DNA of 5,049 nucleotides from an uncultured Cellvibrio sp. GTDB taxonomy: Bacteria > Pseudomonadota > Gammaproteobacteria > Pseudomonadales > Cellvibrionaceae. Under the pieces are notes generated by a model. It did no database searches. It was not told the origin of the DNA and worked only from the letters and a program-made list of their open reading frames with translations. A program made the translations under genes and the position numbers. Positions 2 to 4,713 of this stretch are shown here, one piece after another. The stretch is from positions 1 through 5,049 of the forward strand of contig CAMPIG010000356.1 of assembly GCA_946886255.1 (NCBI GenBank), in the 5' to 3' direction. The first letter of the stretch is position 1, and every line of letters begins with the position of its first letter.

Positions 2-193
2 AACACGGTGGAGAAGCATATTGCCACCGGTATCAAACGCTGTACCGGCTATATGATGGCGCTTAAAGCAGGTACCCTGGATAACGTCAGCAGACATAAC
101 CTCAGTAATCAAAACGTCAGTAACAGTCAAACGGCCGATGAGCCTTCGCACGAAGAAGCGCCCGTGGCAAAAGCAGGTGTTGGTCATGAGTAA
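2..193 (+). CDS. ECF RNA polymerase sigma factor, FecI type (3' end only)
   Basis: Only the last 63 residues are in the window; the gene begins upstream. The sequence NTVEKHIATGIKRC at the start matches the end of sigma region 4 in FecI-like ECF sigma factors, where the last helix of the helix-turn-helix contacts the -35 element (family knowledge: 'S.NTVEKH' is a hallmark of the group). The sigma role would be to direct core RNA polymerase to the promoter of the downstream receptor gene. FecI-type proteins usually end soon after this helix. Here a tail of about 40 residues follows, rich in Asn, Ser and acidic residues (it contains NLSNQNVSNSQ), with no recognised domain. The stop codon at 191-193 overlaps the next gene's start, which indicates an operon with the FecR-like gene. 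An internal GTG at 8 is part of the same frame and is not a true start. Confidence 0.87.
   Translation, partial: NTVEKHIATGIKRCTGYMMALKAGTLDNVSRHNLSNQNVSNSQTADEPSHEEAPVAKAGVGHE
175..179 (+). promoter_or_regulatory. Ribosome binding site that favours the FecR start at 186
   Basis: AGGTG lies 6 bases before the ATG at 186. The upstream in-frame ATG at 138 has no comparable purine-rich site just before it. This supports 186 as the start, giving an ATGAGTAA overlap with the sigma stop codon that is typical of translational coupling. Confidence 0.5.
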
Positions 194-1196
194 GGTGGTG
201 GAATTTTCCAACAAAGAGCAGATTCACGAGCAAGCCAGTGTGTGGATTGCGCGGCTGGATCGCGGCTTGAGTGTGGAAGAACAACAAGCCCTCGGTGATT
301 GGGTGCGGCAGAGTCGCGAGCATCGGCGGGTATTATTTGAAATGGCGGCCCTGTGGGATCGCATGGATAGCCTTACCAGGCTGGCCGATCTGTTTGATGC
401 ACCGCAGCGTGCAAAACCGCGCACGCGGGTTTATATGGCGATGGCAGCGTCAGTGATGCTGACCGCGCTCGCCTTCGCCTGGAGCTGGACCTATCTGGCC
501 GGTCCTCATCAAGTGTTGGACGGTGTTTACGAAACCGCCATCGGCGAGCATTCCAGGGTTAACCTCCCCGATGGCTCGCTGCTGGTGCTCAACACCAACA
601 CGCGAGTGAGCGTGACCTACGACACGGAATACCGCCTATTTGTACTGGAGCGCGGCGAGATCAATATTGATGTTGCTCATGACCAGACGCGTCCCTTAAG
701 TGTGAGGGTGGGGGACAGGGTTGTACAGGCGGTGGGCACGGCCTTTAACGTCAAGATGTTCAACGAACGTGAAGTGGAATTACTGGTGACAGACGGCAAG
801 GTGCTGGTCGCCAAACGCCAGCCTGACGCTACGGCGATTGACGCGCCGGTACGCCTGGCGGAAACGGCCATGGCGGTGGCCAAAGGTGAAAAAGTGGTAC
901 TGGGTTCTGCCCAGGAAGCCATTGCGCAGGTCGCTGAAACAGATATTGCGGCACAACTGAGTTGGCGTGAGGGCAATCTGATTTTTCGCGGTGAAAGCCT
1001 TGAGCAGGCGCTTGCTGAAGTCACACGTTATACGTCGGTTGAATTTGAAGTCATGGATGAACACATCAAACAACAACGCATCGCTGGTTTATTCAAGGCG
1101 GGCGACGTAGATGGTTTGCTGGCCACCTTGACGCGTAATTTTAATATTGAAAGTGAACGTCTAAACGACAATAAGATTGTGTTGCGCGCCCGCTAA
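186..1196 (+). CDS. FecR-family anti-sigma factor / sigma regulator (inner-membrane)
   Basis: A 336-aa protein with the full FecR layout. Residues 13-57 form the cytoplasmic sigma-binding region (DUF4880 type: QASVWIARLDRG, then LGDW and HRRVLFEMAALW). Residues 83-103 are one hydrophobic membrane helix. Residues 113-208 are the periplasmic FecR domain, with LPDGSLLVLNTNTRVSV, LERGEINIDV and VQAVGTAFNVK as family hallmarks. Residues 260-333 are a C-terminal STN-like domain (WREGNLIFRGESLEQALAEV). In this family the N-terminus holds or activates the sigma factor, and the periplasmic C-terminus receives the signal from the receptor's STN domain. I chose ATG 186 over ATG 138, which would add 16 basic residues (MSLRTKKRPWQKQ), because of its ribosome site and overlap with the sigma stop. 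No twin-arginine motif precedes the membrane helix. Whether it acts as a pure inhibitor or is also needed for sigma activity cannot be read from the sequence. Confidence 0.93.
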   Translation: MSKVVEFSNKEQIHEQASVWIARLDRGLSVEEQQALGDWVRQSREHRRVLFEMAALWDRMDSLTRLADLFDAPQRAKPRTRVYMAMAASVMLTALAFAWSWTYLAGPHQVLDGVYETAIGEHSRVNLPDGSLLVLNTNTRVSVTYDTEYRLFVLERGEINIDVAHDQTRPLSVRVGDRVVQAVGTAFNVKMFNEREVELLVTDGKVLVAKRQPDATAIDAPVRLAETAMAVAKGEKVVLGSAQEAIAQVAETDIAAQLSWREGNLIFRGESLEQALAEVTRYTSVEFEVMDEHIKQQRIAGLFKAGDVDGLLATLTRNFNIESERLNDNKIVLRAR

Positions 1197-1302: not shown

Positions 1303-4300
1303 ATGTCTTCGACTTTATGGCGGAAAAAAATCGCTCATTCGTCTATTCAGCAGGCGAGCAATACGCTCGCTTCTGAAGGACACGAAGCGGCGATTTTTGC
1401 ACCATTGCGTTGTGCTTTGCTCATGATGCTGAGTTCGGCAACCTGGGCGGAAGATGCGCGTCTTGGCACAATAATCCCTTTCGATATCCCTCAGCAACGA
1501 GCGGATTTATCGCTTATCGACTTCGCCAAACAAGCCAACATCACGCTGATATTTCCTTTTGATACTGCAATGGAAGTGACAGCGAATCCGTTAGTTGGCA
1601 GGTATTCCATCGAAGAAGCCGTCAGGTTGTTACTGGCGAATACGCGATTGAAGGTGGGCGTCGGTGAGGATGGTCAGCTCATGATTACGAGCAATCAGAC
1701 TCAAGGGGAAATCGATTCCATGCACACTAAAAATAAATTATCGAGTGCTATTCTCGGCATACTGTCATCCATGGCAGCCTCGCCATCACTCGCGCAGGAT
1801 GACGGCGGTTCTGTTGAAGAGGTATTGGTTACGGGTATTCGCGGCAGTATACAGCGCGCAATGGATATCAAACGCGATGCGCCCGGTGTGGTAGATGCGA
1901 TTTCGGCAGAAGACATTGGTAAGTTTCCGGATACAAACCTCGCCGAATCGTTGCAACGGATTACCGGTGTATCCATCGACCGTTCCGGTGGTGAAGGGCA
2001 ATTAATTACCGTGCGCGGCTTCGGTCCGCAGTTCAATACTGTATTGGTAAATGGCCGCCAGATCGCGTCAGAAAATGATTCGCGCGCGTTCAGTTTTGAT
2101 ACGCTTGCCTCGGAATTGGTGAGCGGTTTGAATGTGCATAAAACCTCTACCGCGACTATGCAGTCCGGTGGTATCGGTGCGACGGTGAATGTTAAAACCG
2201 CGCGACCTTTTGATATGAATGGCTTTAAAGTCGCCGGCAGTGTGAAAGCATTAGTCGACGAGAACAGTGAATCCACCTCACCGCAATTTTCCGGATTGAT
2301 CAGCAATACATTTAACGAAGATACCTTTGGTGTACTGCTGGCCTTGTCATACCAGGAGCGGGAAACGCGTTTAAATCAGGCGCAGATGGATGGCTGGTTG
2401 GAAAATGTCGGCATTCCCCCTGCAGAATTAAATGGCGGGGCTGGTGTGCCTGAAGGTTCCACTATTTTTTCACCACGCAACTACGATCATAAAGTTACTT
2501 TCGAAGAGCGTACACGTACCAACGGTTCACTGGTGTTGCAATTTGCCCCTTCTGATACGTTAACGCTCACCACCGATTTACTTTATTCTGATTTTGATGT
2601 TGAAACCAATGCGCTGTCCTATGGGCACTGGTTTACTGCACCGAACATTACCGATGCTGTAACAGATGAAAATGGCACGGTGATAGATTTACGCCAGGAA
2701 GTTGGCTTGGCAACTGACATGCATGCCAAGAAATTTGACCGCCTGACCGAAACGTTCTTATTTGGCTTTAATGCAGATTGGGATATAACAGAAAATCTGA
2801 ATTTAAATTTTGATGCGAGTTTTTCCAATGCTGAGCGCGAGGCAAACAATGGCGGTGGTGATCAATTGTCACTGATTGGTTACGCCAACCGCGTCAGATT
2901 TCAGGTTGATGATGCGATTCTGCCTGTTGCCAGCGAATTTGAAACAGCCAATCCAAATATCTATTCAGGTCAGCAAGAGTTGGACGGTACGGCTTATCTT
3001 GAGCCAGGCGATCCAAATTATGAGCCGCCGGCTGGTGTGCAGGATTTTCTCAGCAAGGAAAACAGTCGAGCACATGTGATGTTGCGCCGGGGCTGGGCCG
3101 TTGAAGATGATGTAACCCAGATCAAGCTGGACGGTACTTGGGATGAAGGCAGCGTCAGTGGTTTAGTCAAGGCGCGCTTCGGTGCAATGTTCTCCAATGA
3201 AACCAAAAATCTGGTGCGTTGGGATAATGAAGGTGTCGGTATCCACTGCACGTATTGTGGCTATCCCGATTTGCCGGAAATTCCCGCTGATATGCAATAC
3301 GTATTTGATGCTGGCAATGACTTTCTCGGCGACGTCAGCGGCAGCGGACGAATGCCAACCCAATGGCTGGCACACGATGGCGAAGCAAATTTTGCTTTTC
3401 TTGAGCAATATTATGAAAGCATCAACGGCGAGCCGATCAGCTTTGATGCGGTGCGCCGCGATAATTCATTCGAAGTGGAAGAAGAAACGGTTGCGTTTTA
3501 TCTCGAAGTCGATTTTGCGGGTGAACTGGGCGGTATGCCAATTTCGGCAACCTCCGGTGTACGTGTAGAAAGCACCGATACCACCGTGAACGGAACCCAG
3601 GCACCCGTGATCGGTTTAACCATCCTCGATGAAACAGAAATGTTAGCGCAGTACGGTCCGGCACAAAGTATCGGCGCAGGCGCCAGCTACGACGCAATCC
3701 TGCCAAGCCTGAATATTAAATTGAATATTACCGATGACATGATCGTGCGTGCAGCAGCCTCCAAGACGCTGACGCGCCCAACGCTGGAAAGTATGGCGCC
3801 GGTCACGGTAATTACCACCACTCGTCAAGGTGGCGACTTGACCTCGACAAGCGGTAACTCCGCATTAGAACCCTTCGAGTCCGACAATTTTGACTTGTCC
3901 TGGGAGTGGTACTACGGCGACGCCAGTTATGTTTCCGTGGGCTACTTCAAAAAAGATGTAGCAAACTTTATCGTAAACTCGCTCGAAGATATTACGTTTA
4001 CCTTACCCAACGGGGATACCTTGCTGGACCCATCCACTGGCGATGATCCCGGTGCAGCGGACGCCAATGATACCGCAGCTGTATTTACCAATACCTTGCC
4101 CAACAATGGCGAAACAGCCACCGTGGACGGTGTAGAGATGGGTGTGCAACACACCTTTGGGGATACCGGTTTTGGGGTAATGGTAAATGCGACCCTGGTG
4201 GATAGCGACGCGGAACTTGACCCGGCCAACGTTGAGCAGGTGTTCGCATTAACGGGACTTAGCGATTCCTACAACCTGGTTGGCTTTTATGAACAAGGAC

Positions 4301-4569
4301 CATTCCAGATTCGTTTGGCCTACAACCGTCGCGATGATTTCGTGCAATCACTTACGCAACTCAACGGCGATGGTCCGACCATTGTAGAAGATTATGAACA
4401 GTGGGATATTAGCGCGAGTTACGATATTAGTGATGATATTTCCATCTTTGCGGAAGGCTTAAATCTTACCGAAGAATATGTTCATAAACGTGGACGCTAT
4501 GCTAATCAATTGCTGTTGGTTGAAGATAGTGGAAGACGCTGGACAGTCGGCGTGCGCGCAAGTTTTTAA
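1303..4569 (+). CDS. TonB-dependent outer-membrane transducer with N-terminal STN domain (TIGR01782-like receptor)
   Basis: A 1088-aa receptor for energy-dependent uptake across the outer membrane, with a signalling extension. Order: a basic N-terminal stretch, then a signal-peptide core (about 33-49, CALLMMLSSATWA). Residues 57-129 are an STN domain (FDIPQQRADLSLIDFAKQA, GRYSIEEAVRLLL) of the kind that contacts FecR proteins. Residues 140-164 are a second signal-peptide-like segment and 172-180 a TonB-box-like EEVLVTGIR. The plug runs about 187-303, with DIGKFPDTNLAESLQRITG, TVRGFGPQFNTVLVNGR and GGIGATVNVKTARPF typical of Xanthomonas/Caulobacter/Cellvibrio receptors. The barrel runs to the terminal Phe (WTVGVRASF). 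The only cysteines after the first signal region are C649 and C652 (CTYC). The substrate is not identifiable; family members often import oligosaccharides. No Shine-Dalgarno is seen before ATG 1303, so the exact start is uncertain. The upstream sigma and FecR genes fit a surface-signalling operon. Confidence 0.93.
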   Translation: MSSTLWRKKIAHSSIQQASNTLASEGHEAAIFAPLRCALLMMLSSATWAEDARLGTIIPFDIPQQRADLSLIDFAKQANITLIFPFDTAMEVTANPLVGRYSIEEAVRLLLANTRLKVGVGEDGQLMITSNQTQGEIDSMHTKNKLSSAILGILSSMAASPSLAQDDGGSVEEVLVTGIRGSIQRAMDIKRDAPGVVDAISAEDIGKFPDTNLAESLQRITGVSIDRSGGEGQLITVRGFGPQFNTVLVNGRQIASENDSRAFSFDTLASELVSGLNVHKTSTATMQSGGIGATVNVKTARPFDMNGFKVAGSVKALVDENSESTSPQFSGLISNTFNEDTFGVLLALSYQERETRLNQAQMDGWLENVGIPPAELNGGAGVPEGSTIFSPRNYDHKVTFEERTRTNGSLVLQFAPSDTLTLTTDLLYSDFDVETNALSYGHWFTAPNITDAVTDENGTVIDLRQEVGLATDMHAKKFDRLTETFLFGFNADWDITENLNLNFDASFSNAEREANNGGGDQLSLIGYANRVRFQVDDAILPVASEFETANPNIYSGQQELDGTAYLEPGDPNYEPPAGVQDFLSKENSRAHVMLRRGWAVEDDVTQIKLDGTWDEGSVSGLVKARFGAMFSNETKNLVRWDNEGVGIHCTYCGYPDLPEIPADMQYVFDAGNDFLGDVSGSGRMPTQWLAHDGEANFAFLEQYYESINGEPISFDAVRRDNSFEVEEETVAFYLEVDFAGELGGMPISATSGVRVESTDTTVNGTQAPVIGLTILDETEMLAQYGPAQSIGAGASYDAILPSLNIKLNITDDMIVRAAASKTLTRPTLESMAPVTVITTTRQGGDLTSTSGNSALEPFESDNFDLSWEWYYGDASYVSVGYFKKDVANFIVNSLEDITFTLPNGDTLLDPSTGDDPGAADANDTAAVFTNTLPNNGETATVDGVEMGVQHTFGDTGFGVMVNATLVDSDAELDPANVEQVFALTGLSDSYNLVGFYEQGPFQIRLAYNRRDDFVQSLTQLNGDGPTIVEDYEQWDISASYDISDDISIFAEGLNLTEEYVHKRGRYANQLLLVEDSGRRWTVGVRASF
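1354..1370 (+). repeat. Inverted repeat inside the 5' end of the receptor frame
   Basis: GCGAGC (1354-1359) and GCTCGC (1365-1370) are exact reverse complements with an AATAC loop. The hairpin sits just before AAGGA (1376-1380), the only Shine-Dalgarno-like sequence near the 5' end of this frame. It lies in codons 18-23 of the annotated frame, a poorly conserved stretch before the signal-peptide core. It may influence initiation or may be chance. Confidence 0.35.
1703..1710 (+). promoter_or_regulatory. Internal ribosome binding site before ATG 1720
   Basis: AAGGGGAA lies 9 bases before the in-frame ATG at 1720, inside the receptor coding frame (codons for QGE). It is the strongest Shine-Dalgarno-like sequence attached to any start in the receptor gene, and clearly better than the A/T-rich stretch before ATG 1303. 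It supports, without proving, a second translation start that yields an STN-less receptor of 949 residues. Confidence 0.45.
1720..1794 (+). other. Second, internal signal-peptide-like segment of the receptor (possible alternative N-terminus)
   Basis: Residues 140-164 of the long frame read as a complete Sec signal peptide: Met, a basic n-region (HTKNK), a hydrophobic core (LSSAILGILSSMA) and a c-region ending SLA before QDD, a good signal peptidase I site. The TonB box follows 8 residues later, as in ordinary STN-less receptors of this family. Such a segment is not expected between an STN domain and a TonB box. It could be the true N-terminus of a shorter product (1720-4569, 949 aa, a usual length for the family), a relic of fusion between an STN module and a complete receptor gene, or an internal cleavage site in the long product. 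Confidence 0.6.
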
Positions 4570-4611: not shown

Positions 4612-4713
4612 GGCTAGCGACCCAGGCGGTTCTGAAAACGCATGAATACATCCCTGTAGCTCCCTCACGTCGTCCTTGACGTGAGGGTTTCAGAACCGCC
4701 TGGATCGCTAGCC
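4612..4713 (+). repeat. Nested palindromic intergenic element (102 bp; REP/MITE-like)
   Basis: Two 26-base arms, 4612-4637 and 4688-4713, are reverse complements with one mismatch (C4621 against A4704); the ends read GGCTAGCGA and TCGCTAGCC. Inside is a perfect 10-bp hairpin (4662-4671 with 4678-4687, loop GTCCTT) that abuts the right arm directly. On the left, 24 unpaired bases (4638-4661) separate it from the left arm. This spacer holds TGAATACATCCCTGTA, which contains a 4-bp mini-hairpin (TACA 4647-4650, TGTA 4655-4658). The core resembles, from memory, dispersed intergenic repeats in gammaproteobacterial genomes. No transposase or clear target-site duplication is visible. It sits 42 bp after the receptor stop and 74 bp before the halogenase start. 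Confidence 0.75.
4662..4687 (+). repeat. Inner perfect hairpin of the palindromic element
   Basis: A 10-bp perfect stem (CCCTCACGTC / GACGTGAGGG) with a 6-base loop. Only three T residues follow (4688-4690) before CAG, so it is a poor intrinsic terminator. It could still protect the 3' end of the receptor mRNA or lower read-through into the halogenase gene. Confidence 0.6.

Follow-up and report, generated by a model that had tools for sequence, protein, structure and literature searches.

TonB-dependent transducers such as FecA, FpvA, PupB, FoxA, and HasR have a fecI-fecR-receptor gene order and a receptor in which an STN signalling domain precedes the TonB box, the plug, and the barrel. This organization is shared by a receptor gene in the window analyzed here, which is the whole stretch of 5,049 nucleotides from an uncultured Cellvibrio sp. 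Unlike the five transducers, the window gene has a second complete signal peptide and a ribosome site between the STN domain and the TonB box. In HasR (3ddr), 4 residues lie between the STN domain and the plug part, as read from two weak matches, compared with 34 in the window receptor. In a survey of Xanthomonas receptors, the extension is placed between the signal peptide and the plug (PMC1790865).

FoxA of Pseudomonas aeruginosa was reported to give bands sized with and without the signalling domain in a prc mutant, for which cleavage by CtpA was proposed, and its overproduced signalling domain protected the anti-sigma factor (PMC11637429). The window gene would resemble FoxA in yielding one receptor form that bears the signalling domain and one that lacks it, and in the action of this domain on the anti-sigma factor; however, periplasmic proteolysis by CtpA is proposed for FoxA (PMC11637429), whereas the window gene encodes a second start, possibly in addition to signal peptidase cleavage. 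Two-polypeptide phage endolysins (PMC9430671) likewise use an internal start for two products with a common frame and stop, and Salmonella N-terminal proteoforms (PMC11005335) also combine an internal start with a common frame and stop. Unlike in these cases, the internal start of the window lies behind a periplasmic domain and leads into a further export signal; therefore, both products would be exported, and one alone would carry the signalling domain. Signalling is also separated from transport in VreA of P. aeruginosa, which lacks a barrel and has its own gene, unlike the nested window receptor (PMC4971064). Transducers and in-frame internal starts are both known. A search of titles and abstract openings, with most subscription journals outside its scope, found no transducer gene that contains a whole transport receptor with a separate export signal, and no internal start or second signal peptide in transducers.

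Organization of the window

All genes of the window are on the forward strand, in the order sigma factor end, FecR-like gene, receptor gene, and halogenase-like gene. The features are as follows.

2..193, +, gene for a FecI-like ECF sigma factor, C-terminal part only; its ORF runs off the window edge
186..1196, +, FecR-like anti-sigma regulator gene (PF04773, 62.1 bits; PF16344 FecR_C, 25.6 bits); the start ATG 186 is our choice in an ORF that runs from 138
1303..4569, +, long ORF of 1088 aa: signal peptide 1, STN, signal peptide 2, plug, and barrel
1303..1449, +, signal peptide 1 (SP1) with a long n-region; cleavage after TWA is our reading
1318..1343, +, TGGCGGAAA-N12-TCGTC element in the 5' part of the long ORF; probably the cognate ECF sigma factor's promoter
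1474..1692 (edges approximate), +, STN signalling domain (weak PF07660; FecA model NF041676; alignment with the PupB N-terminal domain, 6ovk)
1703..1710, +, internal Shine-Dalgarno (SD) site AAGGGGAA (-7.6 kcal/mol; family-wide synonymous constraint)
1720..4569, +, nested short ORF of 949 aa, STN-less receptor precursor
1720..1794, +, signal peptide 2 (SP2), MHTKNKLSSAILGILSSMAASPSLA followed by QDD; cleavage SLA/QDD, with SLA ending at 1794
1816..1833, +, EEVLVT, which we take to be the TonB box (conserved columns in alignment A1)
1870..2181, +, plug domain (PF07715)
4788 onward, +, 5' part of a tryptophan-halogenase-like gene

The fragment at 2..193 had no Pfam match of its own, and by eye it resembles the C terminus of the FecI-like sigma factor of relative L286, in which Pfam Sigma70_r2/r4 is present. 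Linkage of sigma and anti-sigma genes to the receptor is present in the window, the sigma end being read from this comparison and FecR from PF04773. The STN match to PF07660 (17.7 bits) was below the cut-off of 28.4; the domain aligned with the PupB signalling-domain structure 6ovk (E 8e-4), and precomputed PF07660 annotations were found on several of the best 120 of 7992 homologues. The plug and the TonB-dependent barrel were recognized by PF07715 and PF00593. Gene order and domains fit a TonB-dependent transducer of FecI/FecR cell-surface signalling (STN, plug, and barrel with linked FecR and sigma factor), and the STN domain of the long form would contact FecR and signal. One relative, L177, was 89% identical to the window across 3364 bases. 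Between the receptor and halogenase-like genes lies a 26-nt inverted repeat (4612-4713; 96% complementary, arms 50 nt apart), which may be a terminator or a small mobile repeat. No RNA family was found in the window with Rfam.

A probable internal start within the receptor frame

An earlier note on this DNA had described an in-frame SD site, ATG, and full signal peptide located between the STN domain and the TonB box. This arrangement was borne out: the SD site at 1703-1710, ATG 1720-1722, and SP2 at 1720-1794 share one frame, and the 1088-aa frame is open through both the SD site and ATG 1720. Read from 1720 alone, the frame is, as also claimed, a complete 949-aa precursor of an STN-less receptor, scoring 681.8 bits against TIGR01782 versus 681.2 bits for the long frame. 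The computed anti-SD duplex at ATG 1720 (-7.6 kcal/mol) ranked second among 74 in-frame ATG/GTG/TTG codons, and that at ATG 1303 was +1.8 kcal/mol, i.e., no SD. The computed SD of another in-frame ATG at 1681, 13 codons upstream of 1720, was stronger still (-9.1). Because Met occurs at the equivalent place in just 8 of 179 SP2-positive relatives (a count at fixed offset), ATG 1720 is the conserved start. Initiation at ATG 1681 would lengthen the n-region of SP2 by 13 residues.

Sample of relatives

A protein search gave 7992 homologues, and the best 120 of these were examined. Among these best 120, 112 had a recognizable STN motif; of the remaining eight, five lacked STN, two were N-terminally cut, and one (P0059) duplicates P0033 starting at the internal Met. 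P0059 is identical to residues 137-1081 of P0033 (945/945), such that the same sequence is entered both as 1081 aa and from the internal Met. The second-start residue in the linkers of 92 homologues was Met in 81, Val in 8, and Ile, Leu, and Thr in 1 each. A genome-contig scan contributed 80 loci taken from 114 confirmed, and more came from whole-genome searches of overlapping sets (10, 244, 97, 295, 144, and 2 genomes, with 10, 22, 7, 99, 52, and 1 matching, respectively), from which 80 stretches were taken. The sample comprised the window and 282 loci, in which stop-to-stop reading identified 235 distinct STN ORFs. After 4 without room behind STN and 15 more with STN below 45 bits were dropped, 216 were kept (STN at least 45 bits and room behind STN).

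An ORF was called SP2 positive if the most hydrophobic 10-residue window behind STN reached at least 1.8 KD (hydropathy rule) and SP2 negative if lower. By this rule, SP2 was present in 179 and absent in 37 of the 216 ORFs kept from related genomes; since the search profile was built from SP2-bearing proteins, this family-biased ratio is not a prevalence. Two SP2-negative ORFs, L073 and L211, lie near the cut and by eye have a weak signal peptide with an ATG. Carriers include Cellvibrio, Microbulbifer, Colwellia, Pseudoalteromonas, Rheinheimera, Catenovulum, Shewanella, Steroidobacter, Woeseiaceae, and SAR92; no relatives were found among viral contigs. In 177 SP2 rows, the n-region had a net charge of at least +1 in 98%, the -3/-1 site was permissive in 98%, and a strict A-x-A site was present in 62%. 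The n-region of SP2 is very long in L116 and L269, with the ATG far upstream of the hydrophobic core. In L061 and L070, the receptor ORF extends 582 and 549 codons, respectively, past the STN match; both ORFs are shorter than those of relatives and are either broken genes or shorter receptors.

Conservation of the start codon and ribosome site

At the second start, 178 of 179 SP2-positive ORFs retain ATG, GTG, or TTG in frame. In 155 of them, an ATG lies 4-20 codons ahead of the hydrophobic core; the other 24 have GTG at the start position (20 ORFs), TTG (L226), an ATG further upstream (L116 and L269), or none of these (L078). GTG makes up on average 39% of the Val codons in the 20 GTG-start ORFs, a comparison that serves as support only, the position having been picked with GTG in view and five rows being Microbulbifer-like near-copies.

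Selection on the ribosome site was examined by keeping the amino acids fixed, redrawing codons from each ORF's own usage, and comparing anti-SD energies; starts were set by rule as the first ATG before the core, which leaves doubtful codons in a few rows (e.g., L183, L011, L112, and L278). The energy before the second start was -6.25 observed versus -3.79 expected (114 clusters; Wilcoxon p 9e-19), whereas 728 other in-frame ATGs in those ORFs showed no excess (-1.75 observed versus -1.89 recoded). A level of -5 kcal/mol was reached by 77% of the 114 SP2 starts versus 8% of the 728 other ATGs. The excess persisted at STN identities of at most 50% (p 6.5e-10; 49 clusters) and at most 42% (p 6e-5; 23 clusters), and the synonymous signal formed a single peak about 11 nt upstream of the second start. 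Because the amino acids encoded there vary by clade (EE, GE, KGK, EGD, and FER), the ribosome site rather than the peptide is under maintenance. A strong computed SD was absent in 38 of 177 SP2-positive rows, largely Alteromonadales by record title, many of which have GAGAGA by eye.

The joint occurrence of start, ribosome site, and SP2 was examined on a tree of STN plus plug with 214 rows, 2 of the 216 having been dropped for too little plug sequence. A strong start with SD and SP2 occurred together in 139 rows, SP2 alone in 38, the start alone in 1 (L247), and neither in 36. SP2 changed state at least 15 times on the tree. In 12 independent pairs that differ in SP2 across supported branches, start plus SD differed in the same direction in 7.4, in the opposite direction in 0.1, and not at all in 4.5 (averages), a modest test with a median p of 0.016. 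The joint conservation of Met, ribosome site, and SP2 that the earlier note had asked about was therefore found across many clades. STN homologues without the hydrophobic core, which bear on a refuting condition set in the same note, do exist (37 of 216); 36 of these also lack the start with a strong ribosome site, as expected where the three parts form one losable unit. Colwellia-type rows (e.g., L040, L053, L059, and L063) have neither SP2 nor start plus SD and yet keep STN and receptor, thereby indicating that SP2 is dispensable for a fused transducer. Six STN-less paralogues (L095, L099, L100, L102, L109, and L110) begin with ATG and an SP2-type signal peptide, and 4 of the 6 have an SD of -5.5 or stronger. 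At the level of sequence comparison, these results establish joint maintenance of the internal ribosome site, the start codon, and SP2, with selection on synonymous sites preserving the ribosome site, and show that the nested SP2 and start are neither due to chance nor peculiar to the window.

Retention of the long protein

In 31 close pairs of relatives, dN/dS was 0.19 for STN, 0.18 for the linker, SP2, and TonB box, 0.41 for SP1, and 0.61 for the stretch from the upstream element to SP1. Purifying selection on STN and on the linker/SP2/TonB box region indicates that the long protein is retained too. For the element-to-SP1 stretch in equal-length pairs, dN/dS was 0.57 in frame versus 0.87 and 0.85 in the shifted frames, which suggests that some coding signal remains between the element and SP1. 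A hydrophobic stretch precedes STN in all 179 SP2-positive and all 37 SP2-negative ORFs.

The frame is broken by frame changes in L203, L097, and L023 and by a stop in L204 (no SP2), and in L207 it crosses masked bases; given such causes, these loci decide nothing. Among them, no clean two-gene split of STN and receptor was found, and only L203 and L097 separate an STN ORF from an SP2 receptor, in both cases through a frame change for which sequencing error is a possible cause. In L203 the change sits just behind the internal ATG within an A run, where sequencing error, decay, and slippage are all possible. Among the loci listed, no long-form start downstream of the upstream element is shared family-wide. 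In 100 in-frame loci, strong-SD starts of the long form were found in 18 upstream and 17 downstream of the element, and 9 have no ATG/GTG/TTG upstream of it.

A promoter-like element in the 5' part of the long ORF

The GGAAA-N13-CGTC form of the element was present in 107 of 213 loci (105 SP2 positive and 2 SP2 negative), with 100 copies in frame with STN and 7 out of frame. When spacers of 8-23 were allowed, 108 of 110 upstream motif pairs had the 13-nt spacing, which was absent from 210 control stretches. The pattern WRKxxxxSS near the long-form N terminus (95 of 215 loci) had been considered as a protein motif and was rejected, since it behaves as a DNA element: the second codon varies among Arg, Trp, and Gly while GGAAA is nearly constant, and the Ser pair is nearly always encoded by TCG TCN.

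In 10 whole genomes, TGGnGGAAA-N12-TCGTC was rare, with 12 matches in 9 genomes versus 3 for the reversed pattern; further copies precede the sigma gene of L286 (Pfam) and a similar gene in L293. A FecI-like gene lies within 3 kb upstream in 81 loci, 35 with and 46 without a receptor copy of the element. A copy (GGAA[AT]-N13-CGTC) was found 32-220 nt before fecI in 24 of the 35 versus 1 of the 46 (Fisher 3.7e-11, kinship ignored). The element, which the earlier note had not mentioned, is thus probably the promoter of the cognate sigma factor and probably marks its regulon. Against this reading, 11 of the 35 loci have no copy before fecI, and many receptor copies in Colwellia, Pseudoalteromonas, and Rheinheimera have no FecR match within 900 nt. 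Among the relatives, FecR lies upstream at a distance of at most 900 nt in 119 of 170 SP2-positive versus 14 of 35 SP2-negative loci. ECF promoters usually have a core spacing between -35 and -10 of about 16-17. The 13-nt spacing from GGAAA to CGTC is shorter, and the -35/-10 assignment is therefore tentative. No description of TGGnGGAAA-N12-TCGTC was found among the listed papers on sigma promoters. In L294, a further copy precedes a sulfatase gene (PF00884, 192.5 bits), which hints at a sulfated glycan substrate in that lineage.

Proposed mechanism and alternative explanations

Very probably, the gene is an in-frame nested pair that encodes a long signalling receptor and a short transport receptor, as the earlier note had suggested. 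A weak upstream start would give the SP1-STN-SP2-plug-barrel transducer, which would communicate with FecR via STN, and ATG 1720 with its own SD would give an STN-less precursor with its own signal peptide, which would be exported to the outer membrane and transport without signalling. Both proteins would accumulate. The short form, having the stronger ribosome site, would therefore be the more abundant, and the long form would be scarce because ATG 1303 has no SD and strong-SD starts are few (18 plus 17 of 100 loci). The long form would then act as a scarce sensor and the short form as the bulk transporter, with sensing and uptake capacity set separately.

A more elaborate version, which we regard as possible but doubtful, adds an internal switch, in which basal read-through from fecIR gives few long sensors, induced transcripts beginning after ATG 1303 give the nested receptor only, and the loop amplifies uptake and not sensing; the long precursor would also be cut at SP2, with STN as a free periplasmic regulator. 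Since the element at 1318-1343 is downstream of ATG 1303, its transcripts should lack this ATG, and induction may amplify the short form only. SD-led starts lie behind the element in a few loci (L119, L193-L196, and L200), and the two-promoter model is therefore not general.

The weightiest rival, not raised in the earlier note, is signal peptidase cleavage at SP2. It supposes that only the long protein matters, that SP2 acts as an internal signal peptide in export, and that cleavage at SLA/QDD frees a periplasmic, perhaps membrane-tailed STN domain from an STN-less receptor. The retained cleavage-site pattern of SP2 (98% permissive and 62% strict A-x-A in 177 rows) agrees with it, as do the FoxA bands with and without the signalling domain and the protection of the anti-sigma factor by the overproduced domain (PMC11637429); however, it leaves the conserved start codon, the GTG substitutes, and the synonymous SD constraint unexplained, and as the sole explanation we consider it unlikely. 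Cleavage of the long precursor and the internal start may both be true. In a second alternative, an STN gene became fused in frame with an intact receptor gene, and the old start and signal peptide are functionless remnants; the STN-less paralogues with the same signal peptide show a possible origin of SP2. Such a relic is very improbable, given that the synonymous SD constraint persists between clusters that share at most 42-50% STN identity, that start plus SD is absent in 36 of 37 SP2-negative rows, and that dN/dS is 0.18 over the linker, SP2, and TonB box.

It is also quite improbable that the short form is the sole receptor product and that STN is not translated as part of it, the upstream region reflecting a miscalled start or a separate STN protein. 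The missing SD at ATG 1303 (+1.8 kcal/mol), the 9 of 100 in-frame loci without ATG/GTG/TTG upstream of the promoter-like element, and the homologue entry that begins at the internal Met (P0059) are in line with this reading, but STN has a dN/dS of 0.19, signal peptide 1 is present in 179 of 179 SP2-positive ORFs, and the only splits between STN and SP2 receptor among the broken loci examined (L203 and L097) are frame changes, possibly sequencing errors.

Implications

The N termini of receptors of this kind may be annotated wrongly or incompletely in databases, as illustrated by the long and short entries P0033 and P0059. The at least 15 changes of SP2 state on the tree provide natural comparisons. 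If the nested arrangement is true, it would be a gene-encoded counterpart of the proposed release of the FoxA signalling domain. It would also illustrate a way for cells to separate sensing from uptake within a surface-signalling loop, where induction could leave the number of sensors unchanged.
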